Below, one piece after another: positions 11,379 to 33,235 of a stretch of DNA of 35,455 nucleotides. Below the pieces are notes generated by a model. It had not been told where the DNA came from, ran no database searches, and saw nothing but the letters and a program-made list of their open reading frames with translations. Location: positions 1 through 35,455 of the IMG/VR virus record IMGVR_UViG_3300023179_000286, one strand, 5' to 3'. The DNA comes from a virus. A program made the translations under genes and the position numbers. Numbering within the stretch: the stretch's first letter is position 1; the number at the start of each line of letters is the position of its first letter.

Positions 11379-13058
11379 ATGGAACAGTTCAAGCGGTTTT
11401 CACAGTCCAAAGACTCGCAAGAGCCAGCCAAGCCTCTACCGTTTTCGGAGGGGCGTTACGGCTTTGGTTCACAGTTTACCCTGACACACCGCGTAAAGGG
11501 CACAGACTACAAGATTGGTGATCGGTTTACCTATATTTCACAAACCGAAGCGGTTGCCCACAATCCGTATATTTTGAAAATAGGTGACGGTATTGGTGAA
11601 CACTGCTTTGTTGATCCCAACGGTCGTGCTGTGGTGCTGTCTGCTGATCTTGGTGTGGTGGACACCTTGTTTGAGTGGATACGACCACAGCCTCAAACTG
11701 TGGTGTTGACGGAAGGCGAAGAATTTACTCCTCCACCTCCACAACCTGTTTACATTACTGAAGCACAGTTCACCGAATTCCGAAAGGGATTGGCTACTGT
11801 GCTTTCGGAAATTGCTGCTATTGTTCCCCAAAAGGGTGAGCGTGGCGAACGAGGTGAGAAGGGTGATCGCGGAGAAGCAGGCGAGCGTGGTGAGAGCGGA
11901 TGGACAGGCTGGCCAGGAGACAAGGGCGAACAAGGTGTACAAGGCGAAAAGGGTGACAAGGGTGAAAAAGGAGACAAAGGCGATGCAGGCGAAAAAGGTG
12001 AACAGGGCATCCAAGGCGAGAAGGGCGAAACAGGCCCGAAGGGCGAGCGTGGCGAAAAGGGCGAGAAAGGTGAGAAAGGCTCTCGCGGAGATCGTGGAGA
12101 AGTTGGCCCTCGTGGTGAGAAAGGGGAAAAGGGCGATAAAGGCGATAGAGGCGAGTCTGGAATACGAGGTCCAGCGGGCAAAGACGGAAAAGACGGCAAA
12201 GACGGTGCGGAAGGTAAAGCGGGAAGAGTGGGGGAGAAAGGACTAAAGGGAGACAAGGGAGAGAAGGGTGATCGTGGCGAAAAGGGAGACAAGGGCGACA
12301 GCGGACTGCTGACTGCCAAGTTTCCTCTTGTTTACGATCCACAAGAAAAATCTGTTGGCATTGACGAAGCCCGATTAGATAAAATCCTGAAGAAGATTTT
12401 GGGTGGCGGTAAGATTTCACCACAAGATATGGGATGGCTTGCGTCCACAGGCGGTGGTGGCAAGGTGGCTGTGTATGTGAACGGCACGAAAATTACTCCT
12501 GATGTTCGCACACTTGCGTTTACTAGTAGCGGAAACGCAAGCGTTTCTGCCACCAAAGTTGGTGGCAAAGTCACGGTAAATATCAATAGCACAGGCAGTG
12601 GCGGTGGTGGCATCGAAAACGATGCTTATGTGAGTTCATTCAACGGACTCACAGGTGCGGTTCAGGGTGTGTCTTCTGCTAATGGACTCACGGGTGCTGT
12701 AACATTCCGTGCAGGAGCAGGGATAACTCTTTCCACATCAGGTGGTGGAATATCTTTTGCAATACATTATGGAGCAACAGGTGCGGGTGCACCTTTCAGT
12801 ATTGCTTCTCCTACCAATCTTGATAAATTCTTGTTTCAGGACAATGAAACAGGACAAATGCAAATAGTATCGTACTCAACTATTTTAACAAAGGCTGCTC
12901 AAGTTGGAGATAATCTAAACACATCAGCAACATATACACCAAGCAATACTAATTTCGTGGTAAAAAACACCTCATCAGGACTCACAGAAATGGTGTCTGC
13001 TAATAATATATTTTCAAGTATTGATGGGGGCATTTACGACAATACAATTCCAGTCTGA
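11379..13058 (+). CDS. Collagen-like fibre protein
   Basis: 559 aa in three parts. Residues 1-152 form a non-repetitive N-terminal domain with a Pro stretch (TPPPPQPVYIT) and a helix before the repeat. Residues 153-308 are 52 uninterrupted Gly-X-Y triplets dominated by GEK, GDK and GER, with few prolines; such repeats form trimeric, salt-bridge-stabilised collagen helices. The C-terminal 250 residues are Gly/Ser/Thr-rich and contain FNGLTGAVQGVSS, a motif repeated in the next gene. This layout is typical of trimeric tail fibres or head decorations in phages. It starts 5 bases after the thyX stop, so a change from metabolic to virion genes occurs within one transcript; a late-type promoter follows only after this gene. 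Confidence 0.8.
   Translation: MEQFKRFSQSKDSQEPAKPLPFSEGRYGFGSQFTLTHRVKGTDYKIGDRFTYISQTEAVAHNPYILKIGDGIGEHCFVDPNGRAVVLSADLGVVDTLFEWIRPQPQTVVLTEGEEFTPPPPQPVYITEAQFTEFRKGLATVLSEIAAIVPQKGERGERGEKGDRGEAGERGESGWTGWPGDKGEQGVQGEKGDKGEKGDKGDAGEKGEQGIQGEKGETGPKGERGEKGEKGEKGSRGDRGEVGPRGEKGEKGDKGDRGESGIRGPAGKDGKDGKDGAEGKAGRVGEKGLKGDKGEKGDRGEKGDKGDSGLLTAKFPLVYDPQEKSVGIDEARLDKILKKILGGGKISPQDMGWLASTGGGGKVAVYVNGTKITPDVRTLAFTSSGNASVSATKVGGKVTVNINSTGSGGGGIENDAYVSSFNGLTGAVQGVSSANGLTGAVTFRAGAGITLSTSGGGISFAIHYGATGAGAPFSIASPTNLDKFLFQDNETGQMQIVSYSTILTKAAQVGDNLNTSATYTPSNTNFVVKNTSSGLTEMVSANNIFSSIDGGIYDNTIPV
11835..12305 (+). repeat. Collagen-type Gly-X-Y repeat region, 52 triplets
   Basis: Every third codon is Gly from residue 153 to 309 with no interruption. 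X and Y positions are mainly Glu, Asp, Lys and Arg; only four triplets contain Pro. At DNA level the units are near-repeats of GGCGAxAAGGG-like 9-mers, a substrate for slippage-driven length change. Confidence 0.95.
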
Positions 13059-18797: not shown

Positions 18798-19343
18798 ATG
18801 GATAACCTACACGAACAAATAGACGAAATTCGGGAGTACACTGCTGCTCTTGAAGCAGTGCTGCTGTCCCTGTGCGAAGAACTGGGTCTTGATCCCCAAG
18901 CCTTGATGGAAGACATCCAAACACCAGAGCGAGCAGCAGAACTCAAAAGCAAAATAATGAAGTTGCGTACTAAATTTGCGAAGACGGGTGGCAGCCAGCG
19001 GGTCGCGGATGCACACCGTAAGGCAGAAGTACAAAGGCACAAAGAAGAAAAATCAAAAACCGTTTACGGCAAGGGCGGCAAGCCTGCTAAAAAGGGTTCA
19101 GAAGACTATAAAAAAGGCAAGCAGCGTGAAAGAGATTTGGCTGCTAAACGCCGAAATGAGGCTGAACTGCATAAGAAACAGAAAGCCAAAAGTGCAGCGT
19201 GGCACAAAAGCCAAGCAAACAATCCTGAACACCAACTTCAAATGGCAGGCTATCGTAATGAGGCAGGTAGAGATGGAGACACAGGCGAAAGTTTCATGCG
19301 TGCTATTGGGATTCGGCAAAGCAAAGGCAATCCTTTCAGATAA
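18798..19343 (+). CDS. Small basic protein, paralogue 1 of a tandem pair
   Basis: 181 aa. The N-terminal domain EYTAALEAVLLSLCEELGLDP...MEDIQTPER is shared nearly residue-for-residue with the next gene. A strongly basic, helical middle follows, containing VYGKGGKPAKKGSEDY, a module also present in the next gene and twice in the minus-strand protein at 25448-27337. The C-terminus has LQMAGYRNEAG and SFMRAIGIRQSKG. No signal or membrane segment and no catalytic motif. It has its own terminator and late promoter cassette upstream. Composition and late control fit an abundant virion-interior or DNA-associated protein; this is inference. Confidence 0.75.
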   Translation: MDNLHEQIDEIREYTAALEAVLLSLCEELGLDPQALMEDIQTPERAAELKSKIMKLRTKFAKTGGSQRVADAHRKAEVQRHKEEKSKTVYGKGGKPAKKGSEDYKKGKQRERDLAAKRRNEAELHKKQKAKSAAWHKSQANNPEHQLQMAGYRNEAGRDGDTGESFMRAIGIRQSKGNPFR

Positions 19344-19370
19344 AAATTGTACAAAATCTAAACAAAACCA

Positions 19371-19397
19371 AACCCCGTGCACGGCGGTTGTTTCTTT
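19371..19397 (+). terminator. Degenerate copy of the terminator palindrome
   Basis: AACCCCGTG pairs with CACGGCGGTT with one bulged C (19385), followed by GTTTCTTT. It is a diverged copy of the element at 18739-18769 and again leads straight into TATAAATA. Confidence 0.65.
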
Positions 19398-19404
19398 ATA
19401 AATA
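19397..19404 (+). promoter_or_regulatory. Late promoter TATAAATA (exact consensus)
   Basis: Exact consensus, fused to the T-run of the terminator copy, 20 bases before ATG 19425 with AAGGAG between. Confidence 0.7.
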
Positions 19405-19424
19405 CAGGACAAGGAGAAATTACC

Positions 19425-20033
19425 ATGTCCCGATTCAATACCAACACATTCCGTTCGCTCAACGAGAGCATTGCTCGCGTCCAAAACCCACAAGCCGCTC
19501 TTGATGAGGCTATGGAGTACACTGCTGCTCTTGAAACAGTGCTGCTGTCTCTTTGCGAAGAACTAGACCTTGATCCTAATGCTCTACTGGAAGATGTGCA
19601 GACTTTCGAGCGTAAAATAGAAACCCAAGCAGAGACTCGGAGACTACAACGACAACGCGATGCCGCCAGACGCAGGAATACTGCGGCAGGCGATAAACAG
19701 GAGAGAAGTGCATCCGCAAAGTTACGCCACCGCTACAAACGCGATATGAAAGAACTCGCTAGCAAACAACTCTACGCCAAAGGTGGCAAGGTGGTTCGCA
19801 AGGGTACGAAAAAGTACAATCAAGAAATGGAACGATCCAAGAAGCAAACAGCAGCCCATGAAAAGGCAACGCAGAAAAAATTCGATGCAGAAATGGCTCG
19901 TATAAGGAAAGATCCTGCGGCATATGAACTTTACAACGCACAGATGGCTGGTTATGGTGATGTACAGTCCTATCGCAGAGCAACACAGCCAAAAGGACCA
20001 GATCCGCATAATGGATATGCTGGTTGGTGGTAA
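19425..20033 (+). CDS. Small basic protein, paralogue 2 of the tandem pair
   Basis: 202 aa from ATG 19425, preferred because AAGGAG precedes it and the promoter lies just upstream; an earlier in-frame start would fall inside the terminator. It starts with FNTNTFRSLNESIARVQ, where L12-N13-E14|S15 fits the (I/L)xE cleavage pattern of T4-type prohead protease. Then EYTAALETVLLSLCEELDLDP aligns with paralogue 1. The Arg/Lys-rich middle contains LYAKGGKVVRKGTKKY. The C-terminus has AQMAGYGDVQSYRRAT, matching QMAGYRNEAG of paralogue 1. A short direct repeat of the SYRRAT coding sequence lies just beyond the stop. Probable internal virion protein; function unknown. Confidence 0.75.
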   Translation: MSRFNTNTFRSLNESIARVQNPQAALDEAMEYTAALETVLLSLCEELDLDPNALLEDVQTFERKIETQAETRRLQRQRDAARRRNTAAGDKQERSASAKLRHRYKRDMKELASKQLYAKGGKVVRKGTKKYNQEMERSKKQTAAHEKATQKKFDAEMARIRKDPAAYELYNAQMAGYGDVQSYRRATQPKGPDPHNGYAGWW

Positions 20034-25268: not shown

Positions 25269-25451
25269 TTATTTTTTGAGTGCTCGCTTTTTCTTGAACT
25301 TGTTCTGTTTTTCTTTGGGCGACAGGTCGGTGTCGGTAATATTTGAACCTGGAACGGGCGATTGGAGTTCCACGCCCTGCCCAATAAAGATGTCCTCAAA
25401 CACTAGAGGTTTGGACGGACGCAGACGGATATATTCCCAAAAGCCTTTCAC
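25269..25451 (-). CDS. Small basic protein of 60 aa, unknown
   Basis: Starts in an ATGA overlap with the stop of the large modular protein upstream, indicating coupled translation. It begins MKGFWEYIRLRPSKPLVFED and ends in a Lys-rich tail (KEKQNKFKKKRALKK). No recognised family. The basic tail could bind DNA or a virion partner. Confidence 0.65.
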   Translation of the reverse strand: MKGFWEYIRLRPSKPLVFEDIFIGQGVELQSPVPGSNITDTDLSPKEKQNKFKKKRALKK

Positions 25452-27337
25452 TTGCCCTCGTACTTGGCTATTGGGCGAGGCGAACCCATCTTCTTGCCGT
25501 CCTGTACCTTTTGGGTCAGGATGGTTTTCTTGGGCTTGTGGGGCATAGTGTAGTCCACAGACTTTTCAACAGTCTTCTTTCCACCTGCTCCGATTGAAGC
25601 AACCTCGTAACCAATTTTCTTGTTAGGGTTCAGACCAATCTTAATCATGGGCTTTTTGGCTTCGCTCACAGCCTTCTTCTTGGCACGGAGCAGAGCAAAA
25701 TCTTGTGAATCAAGACGCTTGTTTTTGTTCAGGTCTAGTTTCTTCTGCCCGCCAATAAGTGCTTCGGCAACTTTCTGTCCCGTAGCACGCTTGAGTCCCT
25801 TGACAGCATTGGCTTGCTGCTTGCCTGTGAGCGAAGCGTAGTGCTTTCCAGAACCGTACATCATGGACGACAGTTGCGAACCACGCTTGGCAACATACGA
25901 GTCTTTGGTTGCCTTGCTCAACTCGTCAATCTGCTCAATCTCTTCCTTTACAGCATTTTTGGCACGACGAATTTCGTACTTCTTGTGGAGGGCTTCTAGT
26001 TCACGCCCCTTGTCAAAAGTACCTGCTGCAACTCGCTTGGCTTTGTTGGCTTCCACCTTTTCACGCTGCTTGTAGTACGCATCACGCATTTGCTGCTTTC
26101 GTTCAGGATTGTTTACGCCACGAGAACCGATTCGTGCACGGTCGTATGCGTATCCCATACGAGCCAGTTTGGCTGCTCCTGCTTCGTCAATCTGCTCCAT
26201 CTCTTCCTTTACTACTTTGCCACCAATACCGTAAACTTTACTGCTTTGCTTTTCTCTTGCATTTTTTTCTCTTGCTCTATTCAATTTATCTCCTAGTTTT
26301 CTGAGCCGTCTTTCTCCACGCTCCACTTCTCTAAAACCAAGATTGTGAGGACTTCTATCAAAATCTTCTACTTCAGAGTGAGTATCATCAATACGATTTT
26401 TCAATCTGGTTATTCTTCTCTTCATTTGTTTTTTGCGCTCTGGTGTTTGTAGGTCTTCTTTTACCTCTGCACGGCTACCACGCTTTACAAGTTTGCCACC
26501 GCGACCGTAGGTGCGAGGTGACGAATACTCTTTTTCATCACGCTTTAGCAAACTGACAAGTTTACGCTCGTGCTTGTCTTCCTGCTTGCTTGCACGAGAC
26601 GCAATTGTTCCTGTTTTTGTCATTCGTGTTTGGTAGGCACGCTGGGCAGCATCGTCTGCCTTGTCAATCTTACGCTTCATTTCCCGTTCACGAGCAGGAG
26701 TCTGTAGGTCTTCAGCCACTTCCACGCTTTCTGCTACAGTCGCGGCAGGAGACAGTTTGGCACTAACCACATACAAGGACTCGGGAGTAAGTTCCACATC
26801 CACATGCAGGTTGAGTTCGGTGTAGCCGCCTGTGGGGTTAGCCTTGCCGTCAAAGCGAATCTGTCCTGTTTGTGCGTCGTAGCCGTCAACGCGACCAAAC
26901 TGCACCACAGGAATATCATAAGAACCCACGCCACCGTCCCACGAACCTGGCTTCCACGCAAAATCTAGTTGCACCACATTCAGACGCACCTTCATCTTGA
27001 GGAACGCTTCATTGGGATCAAGGTAAGTGCCCTTGCCAATGGTAGCAAGCATGGCGTTGATGCCAGCAAGAGCACCCGCAGACTGTAGGTGGTGCAAGCC
27101 TGCATCGTCCTTATGAGCCGAGCGGTTGCCGTAACCTGTTAGAACTTCGCTGTACTCGCTCTCATTAAGAGTGCTGCGAAACGCCTTGAATGTTTTGTTT
27201 TCTTTCATGTGTTTTGCCTTTGAAATTTCAATTGCTGCGAGTTGCTTCTGTGCCTTTTCTTTTGAAGCGTGAGTTCCTAATACTTTGCTGCCTGCCTTGT
27301 CTGTTACTACAAACTTGTTGCCTTGCTTTTTAATCAT
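25448..27337 (-). CDS. Modular virion-interior-type protein with repeats and EF-hand-like loop
   Basis: 629 aa. Residues 1-43 form a small domain (GNKFVVTDKAGSKVLGTHAS, EKAQKQLAAIE). A second N-terminus-like segment follows (MKENKTFKAFRSTLNES, with L57-N58-E59), then a beta domain to ~200 and a long, basic, helical repeat region. Repeated elements are EDLQTP(A/E)R..(Q/E)MKR (twice), YG(R/I)GGK(L/V)VK (twice) and EQIDE (twice). Near ~545 is LDLNKNKRLDSQDFALLR, an EF-hand/dockerin-like loop. (I/L)xE sites fall between modules, as expected for cleavage by a T4-type prohead protease. It overlaps both neighbours by ATGA. Likely a capsid-interior polyprotein; function unknown. Confidence 0.7.
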   Translation of the reverse strand: MIKKQGNKFVVTDKAGSKVLGTHASKEKAQKQLAAIEISKAKHMKENKTFKAFRSTLNESEYSEVLTGYGNRSAHKDDAGLHHLQSAGALAGINAMLATIGKGTYLDPNEAFLKMKVRLNVVQLDFAWKPGSWDGGVGSYDIPVVQFGRVDGYDAQTGQIRFDGKANPTGGYTELNLHVDVELTPESLYVVSAKLSPAATVAESVEVAEDLQTPAREREMKRKIDKADDAAQRAYQTRMTKTGTIASRASKQEDKHERKLVSLLKRDEKEYSSPRTYGRGGKLVKRGSRAEVKEDLQTPERKKQMKRRITRLKNRIDDTHSEVEDFDRSPHNLGFREVERGERRLRKLGDKLNRAREKNAREKQSSKVYGIGGKVVKEEMEQIDEAGAAKLARMGYAYDRARIGSRGVNNPERKQQMRDAYYKQREKVEANKAKRVAAGTFDKGRELEALHKKYEIRRAKNAVKEEIEQIDELSKATKDSYVAKRGSQLSSMMYGSGKHYASLTGKQQANAVKGLKRATGQKVAEALIGGQKKLDLNKNKRLDSQDFALLRAKKKAVSEAKKPMIKIGLNPNKKIGYEVASIGAGGKKTVEKSVDYTMPHKPKKTILTQKVQDGKKMGSPRPIAKYEGK

Positions 27338-28350
27338 GGCTTACTCATATCCTTTTCAATCTTACGCCACTTCTCATGTTCACGCTTGTTGACCTGATAA
27401 GGACTGCCTTGTTTGTCAGACTTCTTTGACAGCCCCTTGAGTTCAAGGTAGTTGATTCGTGAGCCACGAGCGTATGCCTTGTTGCGTTCAGGTGTAGGAG
27501 TGCTGGCACGATTCATGGTTTCGGAAGCCTTCTTGCGTTCACGATCAATCACTGCTTGACGAGCAGGAGTTAGGGCTTCTTCAAGATCATTGACAAACTG
27601 GAAGAATGACTTGCCTTCGCTCACGCTCTTCCAACCACCGCCTTTGGAGTTGTACCACTTGACTGCCCATCCGTTGGCATACGCAGACGGGTACACATCA
27701 AACTTGCTCTTTGCCATGCTCTTGGCTTTTGACCACAGAGACGGATTGGTGGGTTTGTTGGCTTCAAGAATTTCTTGTGCGTCTTCGTGGAGTCCAACTA
27801 AACCAATAATGTCTTCGTCGCCACCTTCAAAGGCTTCTTCCACCACATCCTTGCCCATTGTGTACTTGAAAGCGTTGAACAGAGCGGGATTGCCAGTAAT
27901 TTTGCTTACCATTGAATCCAACATATTAATCATCATTTCACGATACACCTTGCCCATGCTCATCTGCTTCATGTTGCTCTTGGACTTTAGAGCCTTGCGA
28001 GCAGCGGTTAGTTGCTCTTTGTCCACCAGCCCTTTGCGTAGGAGTACATCCACGCGGCTAGACTCTGCACTTTCGCCCAACTTTTGGCTAGTAGCAGCAA
28101 CGGTTTCTGAAGCATCGGCGGCTCCTTTGGTTTTGGTTAGTGACGAGCGAAGAGCGGTGTACAGTACACGGTTCTTCAGGATGGTGTCTACCACATCCAC
28201 TAGAATTTCTTGCATCAGGGTGCGGTATGCAGGACTCTTGGCGTATCGTTCAGGATCAGAGAACAGCGTCATGGCACGACGCACATTGGTTTGGGAAACC
28301 AGTCCAAGACGAAGCAGGGCTTGTAGTTTTGATTTGATAGCGGTGTCCAT
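27334..28350 (-). CDS. Modular virion-type protein with internal duplication
   Basis: 338 aa from ATG 28350, chosen for its AAAAGGA ribosome site. Two related ~65-residue units start LLRLGLVSQTNVRRAM and LLRKGLVDKEQLTAAR and each ends in a similar helix (LVDVVDTILKNRVLYTALRS; MINMLDSMVSKITGNPALFNAF). Then comes an acidic linker, ILEANKP, and a domain with LWSKAKSMAKSKFDVYPSAYANGWAV and GGGWKSV, which I recall as widespread in marine phages. The C-terminus is basic with TPTPERNKAYARGS, like the TPxR elements of the neighbouring gene. (I/L)xE sites (ILE|A) again sit at a domain boundary. Probably a capsid-associated protein. Confidence 0.7.
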   Translation of the reverse strand: MDTAIKSKLQALLRLGLVSQTNVRRAMTLFSDPERYAKSPAYRTLMQEILVDVVDTILKNRVLYTALRSSLTKTKGAADASETVAATSQKLGESAESSRVDVLLRKGLVDKEQLTAARKALKSKSNMKQMSMGKVYREMMINMLDSMVSKITGNPALFNAFKYTMGKDVVEEAFEGGDEDIIGLVGLHEDAQEILEANKPTNPSLWSKAKSMAKSKFDVYPSAYANGWAVKWYNSKGGGWKSVSEGKSFFQFVNDLEEALTPARQAVIDRERKKASETMNRASTPTPERNKAYARGSRINYLELKGLSKKSDKQGSPYQVNKREHEKWRKIEKDMSKP

Positions 28351-28381
28351 TACGGGTTCCTTTTGCAAAATGCGTTTTCTA

Positions 28382-28389
28382 TATTTAGG
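28382..28389 (-). promoter_or_regulatory. Late-promoter-like octamer CCTAAATA (minus strand)
   Basis: Lies between the stop of the cytidylyltransferase-like gene and ATG 28350, 31 bases before the start. It would drive the modular virion protein genes. Confidence 0.55.
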
Positions 28390-28395
28390 TTCCTA

Positions 28396-29682
28396 TTACA
28401 TGCTGCGAACGGGGCCATAAACCGACCTACCGTTCTGTATTCTGTATATTTGAATTTTGCCGTTTCGGAGCGTAACATAGATTTCCTCGCCGTAACGGAT
28501 GGCTTGAACGGCATCCCCGTCTCCAAAAGTTTGGTACGGTTGGCTACACGAGCCAATATAGAAGTTTACACGCCCGTTTTTTACCGCTACCCATGTGTCT
28601 TCAGCAGTTCCTCGTGGGTTTCGTGGGCAAGACGAGCCTTCGTCCAAAGACTTGTGGCTGGTCATTACAGGCTTGTTGCCCTTGCCGCTCTTGGACGCTT
28701 TGGCTTCTGCTCGTCGCTTTTGTGCCACAGCAGCCTTGCGTTCTTTTGGCGACATCTCGCCCACAGTTTCAGGGGTCTTGCCCACTTTGTGCAGCGGACG
28801 GCATTTGGGATACGCACCGCCTTCGCTTGCGTCCTTGCGACCACAGGGCGGATACTGCCCTGTCTTTGGGTCTTTTTTGCCACCAATATTGACCCATTTC
28901 TGCTTGAACCAATCACCCAAGTCTTCGTCAATCTTGCACGGTGGGGTTGGGAACTGTGTGCTGTGCTTGGAGAATCCACCTGTTTGACCGGGTGTGGGTG
29001 GACGACGCTTATACTTGTCGCTTTCAATAATGTTGGCAGCAGCGGCGTGGTACAGTTCACTAAAGTCAAACTCTTCTTTCATGCCCTTCCGCATTCCACG
29101 CTGTAGTTCATCAAACAGGCGAACAGTATCGTCACGGCTTGCAGCAGAAGGCATTCCTTGTGCAAACGATTTCTTGTCGTCTTGTTCAACAGCGGCTCGC
29201 ATTTTGCTAGCACTCATGCCCTGCACACCTGTTGCCTTGGCATCACGCTTGCCTGCCATCACGAAATCGTAACGCTTTAGTTTTAGTCGGCGTTTAGGAT
29301 CAGAGTGCTTCATTAGTTTGCGGATGGTTTTGTCATCGTAGTCTTCGCTGCGATCTTCACCGCCCACAAACACCACATGATCGTACCCCATCTCTGCAAG
29401 CGTATACAGCAGATCAAATGGGGTCTTTATGTTTTCAGAGTTTAAAAAATGTACTCCCGGAAATAGGCGTTTCAACCAATAGTACTTACGAGATGGCGAC
29501 AACGGATTCTTTTTGGGATCGTGACTGCGACTAAAACCAATCGCGTGGTCTGCTCCCATTCTTTTCGCTGTGTCTACCACCTTGTTAAATAAGAGTTGGT
29601 GTCCCGAAGTTGGTGGCTGAAAACGACCAAAAGCAACCACAATGGTTTTGCTCTGTCGTGTATCTTTTACAGATTTAGCCAC
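28396..29682 (-). CDS. Cytidylyltransferase/NMNAT-like protein fused to Cys-containing modules
   Basis: 428 aa from GTG 29682. The N-terminal ~190 residues are a nucleotidyltransferase domain: VVAFGRFQPPTSGH (T25-x-G-H28, variant of HxGH), VVFVGGEDRSED, and GMSASKMRAA in place of ISSTxxR. Such enzymes transfer AMP or CMP to phosphate acceptors such as nicotinamide mononucleotide. Next is a module with W.KQKWVNIGGKKDPK, YPPCGRKDASEGG and YPKCRPLHK, found in many phages; its cysteines may bind metal. The C-terminus (WVAVKNGRVNFYIG, YVTLRNGKIQIYRI) is a small beta domain. Sites IIE|S, IDE|D and LDE|G mark the module edges. Its ribosome site is an 11-base match to the 16S tail. Substrate unknown. 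Confidence 0.75.
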   Translation of the reverse strand: MAKSVKDTRQSKTIVVAFGRFQPPTSGHQLLFNKVVDTAKRMGADHAIGFSRSHDPKKNPLSPSRKYYWLKRLFPGVHFLNSENIKTPFDLLYTLAEMGYDHVVFVGGEDRSEDYDDKTIRKLMKHSDPKRRLKLKRYDFVMAGKRDAKATGVQGMSASKMRAAVEQDDKKSFAQGMPSAASRDDTVRLFDELQRGMRKGMKEEFDFSELYHAAAANIIESDKYKRRPPTPGQTGGFSKHSTQFPTPPCKIDEDLGDWFKQKWVNIGGKKDPKTGQYPPCGRKDASEGGAYPKCRPLHKVGKTPETVGEMSPKERKAAVAQKRRAEAKASKSGKGNKPVMTSHKSLDEGSSCPRNPRGTAEDTWVAVKNGRVNFYIGSCSQPYQTFGDGDAVQAIRYGEEIYVTLRNGKIQIYRIQNGRSVYGPVRSM

Positions 29683-29685
29683 TTT

Positions 29686-29696
29686 GGATCACCTCC
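29686..29696 (-). promoter_or_regulatory. Exceptionally long Shine-Dalgarno, GGAGGTGATCC
   Basis: On the minus strand GGAGGTGATCC precedes GTG 29682. It is complementary over 11 bases to the canonical 16S rRNA 3' tail (GGATCACCTCC). The GGAGG core is spaced 9 bases from the GTG start, supporting that start. Confidence 0.8.
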
Positions 29697-29724
29697 CGTA
29701 ATGCACTCGCGGTACACCAACTCT

Positions 29725-30942
29725 TTACTGTTTCCACGATTTGGAAATCGTGAAGTTAGCCTTTGAAAACTCAATACGGTCAACCAGTTTCACCGCATCG
29801 TTGCTCAACCGATCTATGGCAACAAACCCTTCGGGAACTGTTGCCACATACTTGTCACCCTTCTGCACAAATGTTCCAAACTCTGTGCTCAGGGTTGCCA
29901 ATTTTGCTAGCACATGCTTTTTGAGTTGTGCTACACGATTATGTAGTGTGAACAGGCTATTGATCTGATTACGGTTCTTACGCACATAATCCAGTGTTGG
30001 CGTGGGTGTCTTGGCAGGAACTTTGGTTTTTCGTTCTTTACGCTTGGCATCAACCTTTGCAGACATAAACGAGAGTAATTCGTTTGTGTCGCCTAGTTCT
30101 CGTCCTGTGCGAATAATACTGTTGAAATAGGTTTTGATTTCGGATACGAGTGCAGGATTCTTGGCAACTCCGTTCATGGCTGTCCGCAGAGAGATGCCGT
30201 CTTTTATGATGCCATCTATTTGTGAGGTAATATGTGTAATCTCCCGTTCATTAAACAGCCCGTCACCACGAGAGAATCGGTAGGTGGCATTGTCGTACCA
30301 CACTGCTTTGCTTTTGGCTAATCCTTCAAGAGAGGGATTAAACTTGATAACCTTTAGATCACGCATGGTACTTCCACCGTATTCAGTATGAAACACGATT
30401 CCTATTTTGGCACCAGCGATTCGTGCTCCCAAGTGTGACTGTGGATCAATTGCGTATTTGATGGTGTTGGGTTGGAATGTAATGTACCGTTTACCGTCAA
30501 TGGTTTCTCGTTTCAGGGATTCGCTGTCAAACAGCATGTCCCCTTGCAGGATGCCTGTGATGCGTAACCCCTTGAGATACTTCAAGGCTAGTTTCAGTTT
30601 GGCGTTCAGCCCTTCGCCTTCGTGGTTGCGATCAATATCGGCTTCGGTGTAGTTAATCTTGGGTGTCACATTGAACACACTCTTGGTGCCCACAAAAAAC
30701 TTGCCGTTCTCGGGATCGGTTCCCACGATGATGGCAGGTGCGCCGTCCCACTTGACTGAAATATCGTATGGCACAGTATCGTTGCCGTGTAGTGACTGCA
30801 CCACGCCACGCAGAGAATTCATAGCCTTTGAAAACCCTGCAAAGCCACCGTTAAATATTTCGTCTTCAAGGTGCTCCAAGTGGACATTTTTGCCACCTGT
30901 GCTTTTCAGGGACTCTGCCAAGAATGGAATAAATGAATTCAT
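29725..30942 (-). CDS. Ligase-like nucleotidyltransferase-fold protein (KWDG motif)
   Basis: 405 aa from ATG 30942; GTG 30951 is an alternative. Residues HLEHLEDEIFNGG, then ISVKWDGAPAIIVG (K64-x-D-G67), GKFFVGTKSVFN, ITGILQGDMLFD (~128-139) and ITFQPNTIKYA follow the order of the covalent nucleotidyltransferase (ATP-dependent DNA/RNA ligase) fold: motif I KxDG, a motif III/IV-like acidic strand, and a later Lys strand. I recall this family as conserved in marine T4-like phages under a DUF label (DUF6267, from memory). The N-terminus MNSFIPFLAE|S resembles T4 internal-protein leaders cut by prohead protease. A promoter octamer lies just upstream. Ligase activity is not proven. Confidence 0.6.
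   Translation of the reverse strand: MNSFIPFLAESLKSTGGKNVHLEHLEDEIFNGGFAGFSKAMNSLRGVVQSLHGNDTVPYDISVKWDGAPAIIVGTDPENGKFFVGTKSVFNVTPKINYTEADIDRNHEGEGLNAKLKLALKYLKGLRITGILQGDMLFDSESLKRETIDGKRYITFQPNTIKYAIDPQSHLGARIAGAKIGIVFHTEYGGSTMRDLKVIKFNPSLEGLAKSKAVWYDNATYRFSRGDGLFNEREITHITSQIDGIIKDGISLRTAMNGVAKNPALVSEIKTYFNSIIRTGRELGDTNELLSFMSAKVDAKRKERKTKVPAKTPTPTLDYVRKNRNQINSLFTLHNRVAQLKKHVLAKLATLSTEFGTFVQKGDKYVATVPEGFVAIDRLSNDAVKLVDRIEFSKANFTISKSWKQ
29735..29752 (-). other. Perfect inverted repeat at the gene end
   Basis: CACGATTT and AAATCGTG flank a two-base centre, within the last codons of the KWDG gene. There is no following U-run on either strand, so it is not a classical terminator; it may be an mRNA 3' stabiliser or chance. 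Confidence 0.5.
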
Positions 30943-30956
30943 GGGTTTCACCCCAT

Positions 30957-30964
30957 TATTTAGA
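30957..30964 (-). promoter_or_regulatory. Late-promoter-like octamer TCTAAATA (minus strand)
   Basis: It overlaps the TAA stop of the upstream nuclease gene (30960-30962) and is 14 bases from ATG 30942. Expected transcripts would have a very short leader. Confidence 0.5.
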
Positions 30965-31625
30965 CCGTAGAAACCTGTTCAGACTTCCACAGGGCAATAG
31001 CGTCCACAAGGGGTTCCACCCAATCGCGGGTGTGGGCTTCAAACACTTGGCACTCGCCTGTGCTGGCTACACCCATGATGATTGTAATATTGTCCACTCG
31101 CTGCCCTGTCAGGTCTTGCCACATAAGAGCGTAAGCGGCTCCTTGAGTAAAATAATCACTAATTGCGTCTTCGCTCTTGGGATTCTTGGAAGTCTTGAAG
31201 TCCACCACGGACAGGTTGCCGTTGTATTCTGCAATACAGTCAGTGCGTCCTGCCAATCCAATTTTTTTTGACCACAGGGGCACTTCAACCGCACGAATAT
31301 TGTCAATACAGTCCAAATACGGCTGCATGGTGTTGAATATGTCTAGTTCTTCGGTGCCTGCGGCTTCTTGTAGCGAAGCCTCAAAACGGTTCTGTAAATA
31401 GTCCTCTATAAGAGCATGAACCCGAGTGCCACGAGACAGGATTCGCTTGGACTCTTCGGGATGCTCTCGCCGCCATTTTGCGAAGAACTTTCGCTTTGCC
31501 CATCCTGTAACAGTAGTCACAGACGGGAAAACTCCATCGGGTGTTGTGTACTGCCGAGAGCCGTTTGCCTCTGCGGCTGTTATATCCCCCGAAATATTCA
31601 CAAAAGCATGACGAAAAGATTTCAT
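30960..31625 (-). CDS. PD-(D/E)XK exonuclease, MGME1/RecB-like
   Basis: 221 aa. Family order is visible: PSVTTVTGWAKR, RGTRVHALIEDYL (H70, E74), VEVPLW (E114), GLAGRTDCIAEY (D129), LSVVDFKTSKNPK (D142-x-K144) and YFTQGAAYALMW (Gln). This is the MGME1-like branch of the PD-(D/E)XK superfamily; such enzymes degrade single-stranded DNA ends with a metal ion. T4-like marine phages commonly carry it. It may process recombination intermediates or host DNA. The start at 31625 follows the 55-aa gene by two bases, and its stop lies in the next gene's promoter. Confidence 0.85.
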   Translation of the reverse strand: MKSFRHAFVNISGDITAAEANGSRQYTTPDGVFPSVTTVTGWAKRKFFAKWRREHPEESKRILSRGTRVHALIEDYLQNRFEASLQEAAGTEELDIFNTMQPYLDCIDNIRAVEVPLWSKKIGLAGRTDCIAEYNGNLSVVDFKTSKNPKSEDAISDYFTQGAAYALMWQDLTGQRVDNITIIMGVASTGECQVFEAHTRDWVEPLVDAIALWKSEQVSTV

Positions 31626-31627
31626 AC

Positions 31628-31795
31628 TTACTCGTTTTCAGGCGGCTGCTCATCAATGGCTTCCACTTCGGGTTGAGCCTTGGGCTGTTCTGGTGCTGGA
31701 GTTTGGTTGCGATCTAGCCATCGCTTGGCAGCAGCGAATTCAGGCTTGTTTTGTTGCTGCTGCATCCACAGTAGCATGTCTCTCATGTTTGGCAT
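31628..31795 (-). CDS. Small protein of 55 aa, unknown
   Basis: Start ATG 31795 is preceded by TTAGGAGATTAAACC, a strong ribosome site. The product reads MPNMRDMLLWMQQQQNKPEF, then AAAKRWLDRN and a Pro/Glu-rich tail ending PPENE. The first ~30 residues look helical, the tail disordered and acidic. It is spaced two bases before the nuclease gene, so it is probably co-translated and may be a nuclease accessory protein. No family recognised. Confidence 0.7.
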   Translation of the reverse strand: MPNMRDMLLWMQQQQNKPEFAAAKRWLDRNQTPAPEQPKAQPEVEAIDEQPPENE

Positions 31796-31852
31796 GGTTT
31801 AATCTCCTAATAGTATCTAGGCGTGTAATTTATGAAATGTTCAACAAAGTAT

Positions 31853-32671
31853 CTAGTTTGAATACTTGAGTGCGGCTTCGTAGCCTTCTAGCAACTCTTC
31901 GGATATTCGTGCGTACTCCGCAGCACCACGAATAAATGATTCGGTCACAGCCTGTGTGAATGGATTGCTGCTGCCAAATAGCACGATTGCTGGCAAACAC
32001 ACTCCAACCACGACTTCACGCAGGTACGCGGTTTTTGCGTCAAACGAGCACGAGCCGCTCGCCTGTTTCGCTTCCAGTTCGTGTAGCACTTTTTGAAAAG
32101 CCGCCGAGTACGAGCCTGTGGCATTCAAGTTCTCCTTGCCGTGCTGAATGGTGTTGCGGGTTGCGTCCACACACGCGGTCTGTATATTGTAGTCACACTC
32201 TTCTTTCATGGAGATGAATTCCAGCGGTTTTAACGCTTTCCTAAACTTGGACAGTACGGCGTATCTGTCAAATATTTGCAGTTCTTCATTTACAGAACGA
32301 ACCAATGCGTAATTGCTCATGGCTTCTGCAAGGGAATAGATTCTGCTGAATGGTTTGCCGTCTGAAAATGGGCGGGTAAATAGCGACTGCTCGTGAACTG
32401 TGGAGTGCCTGTAGACTGAGTTTGAAATGTACGGCAAGTACCGCAACTCTGCATTACCTGTACGAAACCACACAACAGGAGGACTGTATCGCTCTACAAG
32501 ACTGTCAATGACTGCTAGTGTGAGGCGTGGATCGCTTCCAAACTCCTCCGTTATGGTCAGAGTTAATGGATTTTCGGTTTGGTCGGAAAGCAAAAAATCT
32601 ATTACTGCTTGCGAGTCTTTTCCACTAACTCGCACACGACCACCGTTTGGTGTCTTGTCACATTGAATCAT
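31853..32671 (-). CDS. Unknown protein of 272 aa
   Basis: Start ATG 32671 with CAGGAAAC upstream. The N-terminal ~90 residues (IQCDKTPNGGRVRVSGKDS, LTLTITEEFGSDPRLTLAVIDSLVERY) look like an alternating beta/alpha domain; the C-terminal half is helical with a hydrophobic stretch (VVVGVCLPAIVLFGSSNPF). No catalytic motif or signal recognised. It lies in the late minus-strand block between the nuclease pair and a core-like protein. Function unknown. Confidence 0.7.
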   Translation of the reverse strand: MIQCDKTPNGGRVRVSGKDSQAVIDFLLSDQTENPLTLTITEEFGSDPRLTLAVIDSLVERYSPPVVWFRTGNAELRYLPYISNSVYRHSTVHEQSLFTRPFSDGKPFSRIYSLAEAMSNYALVRSVNEELQIFDRYAVLSKFRKALKPLEFISMKEECDYNIQTACVDATRNTIQHGKENLNATGSYSAAFQKVLHELEAKQASGSCSFDAKTAYLREVVVGVCLPAIVLFGSSNPFTQAVTESFIRGAAEYARISEELLEGYEAALKYSN

Positions 32672-32689
32672 GGTGTAGTTTCCTGTTTG

Positions 32690-33235
32690 TTACTTACGCT
32701 TGCGTGGACGCAAGCCGAACGACAGCCGTTTACGCATAGACAGTTTACGCTTACGCTTTGCCACATTACGCTTTGAACGAGCCTTGCGAGCCGAACGCTT
32801 GGAACGCAATCTCATTTTTCGTAGTTGTGAACCCGGACGACGAACACACAGGCGAGGCCCACGCTTCATCATTCCTGGGCCACATTTGAAAATGATCCGT
32901 TTCTTGCCGCGACGAACCACAATTTTACGCTTGGCAGACGCTTCATTAATCATTTCGGTTTGCACTTCAACCGATTCTTCCACTTCATCAGCCTCTTCGG
33001 CTTCCACCTCTACTTCAATGTCAGCCTCTTCCACAGGATCAAGAATCTCAATCACTCCGTCCTTTTCTTCCCATTCTATACCTTCTTCGTCAAGATACGC
33101 AATCACATCTTCACGATCAAATTTGGGCATATCAAGAACTATTTTGCTTTCGGTTAGTTCAGCATCAAACTCTTCAAAGAATAACCTTTGAAGTGAGTTG
33201 AATGCGTGATCCCGTAAGTCCTTGAAGTCTTTCAT
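32690..33235 (-). CDS. Acidic-then-basic prohead core-like protein
   Basis: 181 aa with a sharp charge split. Residues 1-98 are acidic (DPVEEADIEVEVEAEEADEV); residues 99-181 are extremely Arg/Lys-rich (KRSARKARSKRNVAKRKRK). The junction is MINE|A (I96-N97-E98), fitting prohead protease cleavage. The basic part holds KKRIIFKCGPGMMKRGPRLC, a two-Cys segment I recall in marine phage head-interior proteins. A model consistent with T4 biology is a core protein whose acidic pro-part neutralises the basic part during assembly and is removed before packaging, leaving a DNA-binding peptide. There is no clear ribosome site. Confidence 0.6.
   Translation of the reverse strand: MKDFKDLRDHAFNSLQRLFFEEFDAELTESKIVLDMPKFDREDVIAYLDEEGIEWEEKDGVIEILDPVEEADIEVEVEAEEADEVEESVEVQTEMINEASAKRKIVVRRGKKRIIFKCGPGMMKRGPRLCVRRPGSQLRKMRLRSKRSARKARSKRNVAKRKRKLSMRKRLSFGLRPRKRK

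Follow-up and report, generated by a model that had tools for sequence, protein, structure and literature searches.

The window analyzed here is the whole of a 35-kb virus fragment, the 35,455-nucleotide IMG/VR record IMGVR_UViG_3300023179_000286, which carries genes for DNA polymerase gp43, UvsX, gp41, gp61, ThyX, ribonucleotide reductase, and late proteins and derives from a T4-like marine myovirus. The assignments of the named genes are based on sequences and on synteny with relatives, whose contigs and loci bear G or L numbers in the counts below; among long relatives, G001, a 147-kb contig, is the closest. Our subject is a set of late proteins that carry (I/L)xE tripeptides of the kind cut by the T4 prohead protease gp21 and that a sequence-only reading had proposed as a packaged cargo system. 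The genes and predicted cuts (marked ↓) are listed below; NMNAT stands for nicotinamide mononucleotide (NMN) adenylyltransferase, NTase for nucleotidyltransferase, and CTS for capsid targeting sequence.

25448 to 27337, minus strand: 629-amino-acid modular protein with a 43-amino-acid phrog_3684 domain, the leader MKENKTFKAFRSTLNE↓S, and modules joined by EQIDE linkers
25922 to 25924, minus strand: Glu codon of EQIDE↓L, at an LSKxTxxxY module edge
26183 to 26185, minus strand: Glu codon of EQIDE↓A, at a module edge, found in 7/10 orthologues
27161 to 27208, minus strand: leader MKENKTFKAFRSTLNE, with the predicted cut directly behind its Glu codon (27161-27163)
27334 to 28350, minus strand: 338-amino-acid modular protein (ATG start), DUF5872 related, phrog_27331, used in the module-edge test
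27763 to 27765, minus strand: Glu codon of ILE↓A, at the FDVYPSAYANG module edge, found in 16/17 orthologues
28396 to 29682, minus strand: cytidylyltransferase/NMNAT-like enzyme (T4-GC190 homologue; phrog_3041/395, DUF5872) with a DUF5872 module and a C-terminal beta domain
28639 to 28641, minus strand: Glu codon of LDE↓G, predicted cut ahead of the C-terminal beta domain
28924 to 28926, minus strand: Glu codon of IDE↓D, predicted cut ahead of the DUF5872 module
29023 to 29025, minus strand: Glu codon of IIE↓S, where a cut would part the NTase domain from the SDKYKRR linker
29725 to 30951, minus strand: KWDG protein, DUF6267 (T4-GC71), by PF19782 profile match
30913 to 30942, minus strand: CTS-like leader MNSFIPFLAE, which gp21 is predicted to cut off behind Glu codon 30913-30915
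30957 to 30962, minus strand: T4-late-promoter-like TAAATA upstream of the KWDG gene
32690 to 33235, minus strand: acidic/basic 181-amino-acid protein, its halves divided by INE↓A (Glu codon 32942-32944)

The KWDG protein, which is 84% identical to its G001 counterpart, matches the PF19782 profile over its full length (E=9.6e-99; residues 22 to 404 to profile positions 1 to 376 of 376), and its likely start is the ATG at 30940 to 30942, giving the 10-residue leader MNSFIPFLAE↓S. F4, F7, L8, and E10 of this leader coincide with key residues of the T4 CTS. Mutagenesis of the CTS of the T4 internal protein IPIII assigned residues 4 and 7 to packaging and residues 8 and 10 to cutting, and a CTS with Asp at position 10 still allowed packaging while processing was blocked (PMC9026906). 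T4 IPII and IPIII both begin with MKTYQEFIAE↓A. Residues 1 to 24 of the KWDG protein, the leader region, have a predicted local distance difference test (pLDDT) score of about 32, and in divergent DUF6267 orthologues the variant leaders (MRAFTEHLVE↓A, MNSFKTFLTE↓A, MKNFLTYLKE↓S, MKSFKTYIAE↓E, and MDNFKTFISE↓A) stand, in the alignment, directly before the first invariant domain residues. TAAATA was present within 50 nucleotides of 21/37 DUF6267 starts, compared with 184/1064 genes.

The occurrence of such leaders was also assessed with a 10-mer pattern in the T4 register. This pattern was composed after the DUF6267 leaders had been seen, and because it was written post hoc, what supports it is the agreement with the T4 positions, the control in T4, and genes other than DUF6267. 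Across six T4-like relatives it matched 18/1023 N termini and 3/4430 internal methionines (P=5e-11), and 14/1019 N termini still matched when the four DUF6267 genes were removed (P=2e-8); there were no matches (0/185) in the controls SPO1, T7, and N4. With a loosely defined leader pattern, neither T4 nor G001 gave a significant result; significance was reached only with T4-register patterns. Position P1, the residue before the cut, was Glu in 23 of 79 leader-like N termini, compared with a background of 5.7%. In T4 itself the 10-mer selects IPII, IPIII, gp24, and gp61.1. The last of these, a 54-amino-acid protein annotated as hypothetical (NC_000866, L123 18966-19130), begins with MKTFKEFIKE↓D, a near-perfect CTS, and by this sequence it is a candidate additional T4 internal protein. 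Four to five near-adjacent leader genes were also observed in G001 at 107831-112240 (L119-L120; MIDFRSYLTE, MKGFSNYLTE, MKSFRAHLHE, MKRFVSYLSE, and MKDIFAFLKE), and a similar set occurs in G002 at 79433-84341; both sets are on the same strand as DUF6267, about 7 to 13 kb away. No open paper naming the leader as a CTS in cyanophages was found, the subscription literature lying outside this search.

Homologues of the cytidylyltransferase have been detected by virion mass spectrometry in S-SM1 (PMC3037559), S-CREM2 (PMC10665884), S-SCSM1 and S-CBWM1 (PMC9602691), and S-SZBM1 (PMC9146016). A CTS-like leader is present on all four of the virion-detected enzymes whose genes were read, namely, S-SM1 (MKKFSAFLNE↓A), S-CREM2 (MKNFSSFLTE↓A), S-SCSM1 (MKSFLQFLKE↓A), and S-SZBM1 (MRFRQFIIE↓A). 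Genes 89 to 93 of S-SCSM1, in the same neighborhood, are all annotated as virion proteins, and the virion-detected S-CREM2 gp160 contains DUF5872-like, CWPGY, and YDVWPSAYASG modules with [IL]xE before each. In regions of three isolates, broad leaders were found on 9/25 genes detected by mass spectrometry and on 6/70 undetected genes (P=0.003).

Each site named in the sequence-only reading is present in the protein to which it was assigned: LAE↓S at amino acid 13 of the KWDG frame; LNE↓S at 59, IDE↓A at 385, and IDE↓L at 472 of the 629-residue protein; ILE↓A at 196 of the 338-residue protein (from the ATG); IIE↓S at 220, IDE↓D at 253, and LDE↓G at 348 of the cytidylyltransferase; and INE↓A at 98 of the 181-residue protein. 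Further sites, absent from that list, are LGE↓S, LHE↓D, and LEE↓A in the 338-residue protein, LAE↓M in the NTase domain, and LTE↓S and LDE↓E in the 181-residue protein. The proposed placement at module edges or behind short leaders was likewise borne out, and the three conserved cytidylyltransferase sites (IIE↓S, IDE↓D, and LDE↓G) fall within linkers that AlphaFold models with low confidence (pLDDT under 50). The tripeptide is a common one, and suggestive instances might have been picked by chance. In plain numbers, the late proteins indeed hold 15 sites compared with 15.7 after shuffling (P=0.62; no enrichment), and since these counts match composition, the plain number was dropped as evidence and position and conservation are the proper tests. 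The comparison with random expectation thus failed for plain (I/L)xE and succeeded for sites followed by A, S, G, or D at P1' (12 observed, 4.4 shuffled; P=0.0015); with this and the leader, orthologue, and module-edge tests, we regard chance as a very improbable explanation.

The module edges provide a test of position. The 338-residue protein contains a PTNPxLW...FDVYPSAYANGWA module behind QEILE↓AN. A scan for the FDVYPSAYANG module that was blind to upstream sequence yielded 80 loci and 63 usable instances, and [IL]xE stood within 0 to 3 residues of the module start in 38 of these 63, compared with 3.7 expected; the sites fell in 24 distinct upstream contexts, including the leaders MITFKQLLE↓K and MVTFKQYITE↓E. 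Stand-alone FDVYPSAYANG modules lack the site; such small leaderless proteins were observed in L205, L228, L186, L199, L211, and L219, and the contigs of L205 and L228 yielded no gp21. The LSKxT module is preceded by [IL]xE in 26/26 instances. All 14 module contexts of IIE↓S are [IL]xE, with position P2 free (I, L, V, W, A, or M), and the site at amino acid 220 occurs in 21/21 orthologues, always before S, as IIE, LLE, LIE, ILE, LVE, LME, LWE, or LAE. LDE↓G is represented by [IL]xE in the 13/13 orthologues having the region, mostly with an altered P2, and IDE↓D is retained in 18/21. The unlisted LAE↓M (amino acid 97), inside the folded NTase domain, is retained in only 12/21. LNE↓S of the 629-residue protein is retained in 10/10 orthologues, and those in L087, L088, and L095 begin directly at the leader. 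It could be argued that EQIDE-type linkers are recombination-friendly or structural elements for module shuffling, with no proteolysis, and that virion detection reflects contamination; the modules clearly shuffle, the LSKxT linker is alike in most copies, and carry-over is allowed by the authors of two of the virion studies. However, modules behind nonhomologous upstream sequences, N-terminal leaders included, keep only [IL]xE across the 24 contexts, and P2 is free, and this alternative seems to us very unlikely, though slightly less so than chance.

Conservation gave a second test. In five of the proteins, [IL]xE was kept in 214 cases and lost in 53, compared with 371 and 318 in 11 control proteins from the same phages, and where P3 changed with E kept, swaps between I and L outnumbered other changes by 43:8, compared with 48:54 in controls (P=9e-6); these cells, and the orthologue counts, are not independent of one another. 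A leader that only packages, with sites that are relics or seldom used, would be in line with the T4 CTS with Asp at position 10, and no reported cleaved N terminus was found. Selection has kept I/L at P3 and E at P1 while leaving P2 free, and this, together with the exact charge switch at INE↓A described below, argues against this scheme, which we consider quite unlikely.

The 181-residue protein consists of a half with a pI of 4.1, INE↓A, and a half with a pI of 12 that lacks acidic residues. In 13/13 distinct orthologues the switch from acidic to basic occurs exactly at INE↓A, LGE↓A, or LNE↓V/A, with 27 to 30 acidic and 2 to 3 basic residues before the site and 37 to 40 basic and 0 to 1 acidic residues after it. 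LTE↓S (Glu codon 33149-33151) is also retained in 13/13. Cleavage at INE↓A inside the head would release a polycationic peptide from an acidic mask, and the 629- and 181-residue proteins may be core or DNA-condensing material instead of delivered enzymes.

A gp21 gene was not found in the 35-kb window; the search proposed for a prohead protease succeeded in 7/9 relatives, G001 (147 kb) and six others, in which gp21 (Peptidase S77) is encoded. In G001 and G002, gp23 has QMLVE↓A or QMLVE↓V ahead of the mature domain, [IL]xE is abundant in gp22 (19 in G001, 10.7 expected), and so the cleavage specificity appears to be conserved. In L099, L289, and L291, the gene after the portal gene gp20 encodes the N terminus of the core protein gp67 fused to 629-type modules with EQIDE linkers, and gp21 follows directly in L099 and L291; in other contigs, linker or module genes immediately precede gp20 or occupy the interval from gp20 to gp21. 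This fusion between gp20 and gp21, the module genes that flank gp20/gp21 in many contigs, and the same kind of site in gp22 would also suit prohead core or scaffold components that are shredded by gp21 and mostly lost in maturation, like gp22, gp67, and gp68, and thus are not delivered cargo. Yet folded enzymes whose active-site motifs are intact would make an odd scaffold, and the cytidylyltransferase and modular proteins were detected in mature virions, so that we think this explanation rather unlikely, although the most credible of the alternatives.

The nature of the two proposed enzymes was assessed by fold and motif. The best fold matches of the NTase domain were NadM and NadD, NMN/nicotinic acid mononucleotide (NaMN) adenylyltransferases, at probability 1.00, and the motifs (T/H)xGH and SxSxxR are present as TSGH and SASKMR; a PDB sequence search with the cytidylyltransferase gave zero matches. 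In DUF6267, the ligase-like motifs K67xDG, E374GxV, and K388xVDR are invariant in the alignment. This protein gave neither a sequence match in the PDB nor a meaningful match by fold, and as its model has a pLDDT of 78.6, the missing fold match is weak evidence; assignment as a ligase by fold was unsupported, the carbonic anhydrase matches (TM-score near 0.1) being noise. Of the two proposed nucleotidyltransferase-type enzymes, the one with the adenylyltransferase fold is well supported; for the KWDG protein the proposal rests on the ligase-like motifs, with an empty fold search. The two genes adjoin each other in the window, and the pair is found between gp41 and primase/NrdA in Kyanoviridae such as S-PM2, Syn9, S-SM1, and DSL-LC02. 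Cytidylyltransferase homologues in L034, L035, and L036 are fused into single reading frames of 1129 to 1849 amino acids with many [IL]xE sites, and when relatives of the L100 polyprotein were sought in isolates, a single short match was found.

Taken together, we consider it probable that this set of late proteins is head cargo that is directed to the prohead core, where gp21 trims it, in a marine, partly polyprotein-like variant of the T4 internal proteins. The packaging of close homologues and selection on the sites are supported, and we infer cleavage. A short N-terminal leader such as MNSFIPFLAE would send the protein into the prohead core, where a gp21-type protease would cut after (I/L)xE and remove the leader; in the modular proteins, such cuts would part the small modules in a polyprotein-like manner. 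The NMNAT-like enzyme and a polycationic 83-residue peptide would remain in the head and enter the host alongside the DNA. The cargo proposal of the sequence-only reading is in part supported by a T4-type packaging leader, selected protease-like sites, and gp21 in relatives, and also by homologues in the virions of four isolates and modules fused to a prohead core protein.

Several observations weigh against this interpretation. The mass spectrometry concerns homologues in isolates, not the window virus or a leader-bearing DUF6267, and carry-over into cesium chloride (CsCl)-purified virions was raised as a possibility by the authors of two of the studies (PMC10665884 and PMC9602691). The S-SZBM1 DUF6267 is leaderless and undetected in virions, and no reported new N terminus after these Glu residues was found for any marine T4-like phage. 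The window cytidylyltransferase has no leader of its own; one DUF6267 clade has FITK, with K for E (L048-L056), other clades are leaderless (MKNTHLEH), and G003 has no exact leader. At the module edges, a large homologous NLFLE↓K family places FLE before the FDVYPSAYANG module, and some lineages have V, M, or F at P3 (e.g., EQVDE). At DUF5872 starts, P1 was E in 60/65 and P3 was I/L in only 32, and this edge is therefore weaker support; it was rejected as strong proof, as the Glu may be part of the domain. The post hoc pattern and the nonindependent cells noted above belong here as well.

A fuller version of the cargo reading is that marine T4-like phages load their heads with polyprotein strings in which one leader imports a chain of small modules that gp21 separates in place, the set including a premade NMNAT and an acid-masked polycation. 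We offer this combination tentatively, as possible but on balance doubtful. If it is true, packaged NMNAT could act on the host NAD (nicotinamide adenine dinucleotide) pool at entry, possibly against NAD-depleting defense, and the polycation would become a DNA-condensing peptide only after cleavage within the head. Why cytidylyltransferase/NMNAT-like proteins appear again and again in the virion proteomes of cyanophages has no accepted explanation, carry-over being the standing doubt (PMC9602691 and PMC10665884); a T4-type address label would explain this recurrence and makes the explanation testable. The label also offers a rule by which candidate head cargo could be listed from sequence in T4-like phages that have not been cultured, a group found throughout the ocean. 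In the acid/base protein, the idea that maturation unmasks a DNA-condensing peptide has a simple case open to testing.

Two more genes of the same class lie outside the region first described, at 18798-20033 on the plus strand, and a late-promoter-like TAAATA precedes the 338-residue gene at 28382-28387. T4 internal proteins of the CTS class are recognized by an N-terminal leader of about 10 to 19 residues, and longer variants of the CTS leader occur on the 629-residue protein and on g19377.

18798 to 19343, plus strand: YGKGGKxxKKG-module protein, homologous to g19377-type proteins, with late-promoter-like TATAAATA upstream
19425 to 20033, plus strand: leader protein MSRFNTNTFRSLNE↓S with a YAKGGKVVRKG module, leader kept in L023, L012, L017, L085, L092, and L096

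Elsewhere in the window, all on the plus strand, are a destabilase-type (invertebrate-type) lysozyme domain (PF05497; 301-684), a Mom-like DNA modification protein (PF25680, phrog_1384; 692-1609) that suggests modified phage DNA, a collagen-like protein containing an extended G-x-x repeat (GEKGDKGE...; 11379-13058), and a trypsin-like serine protease (PF00089; 20120-20917) with an apparent secretion signal and a lipobox-like Cys, which is unusual for a phage.

Among known systems, T4 IPI, IPII, IPIII, and Alt share with the window proteins the 10-residue leader with aromatic or hydrophobic residues at 4 and 7, I/L at 8, and E at 10, as well as signals for late expression, basic packaged products, and, in relatives, gp21 (Peptidase S77). 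The cargo itself is unrelated (DUF6267, the NMNAT-like enzyme, DUF5872, and other small modules), the window proteins have several internal sites each in a polyprotein-like arrangement, and in G001 and G002 leader genes stand almost side by side, not far from the KWDG region. The T4-GC190 enzymes of the cyanophages S-SM1, S-CREM2, S-SCSM1, S-SZBM1, and S-CBWM1 are homologous and occupy a similar neighborhood near gp41 or primase/NrdA, whereas in the window the leader is on the neighboring DUF6267 and the enzyme has extra modules. In phiKZ and SPN3US, many head proteins, including large cargo, are cut after xxE by an S77-like protease (PMC5694885), but mostly with long propeptides and A/S/G-x-E sites in place of the short CTS and I/L-x-E of the window. 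The Dar system of phage P1, which we liken by description and not by sequence, likewise uses an N-terminal signal to route antidefense proteins to the capsid (PMC9024508), although a T4-type leader is not among its demonstrated features.

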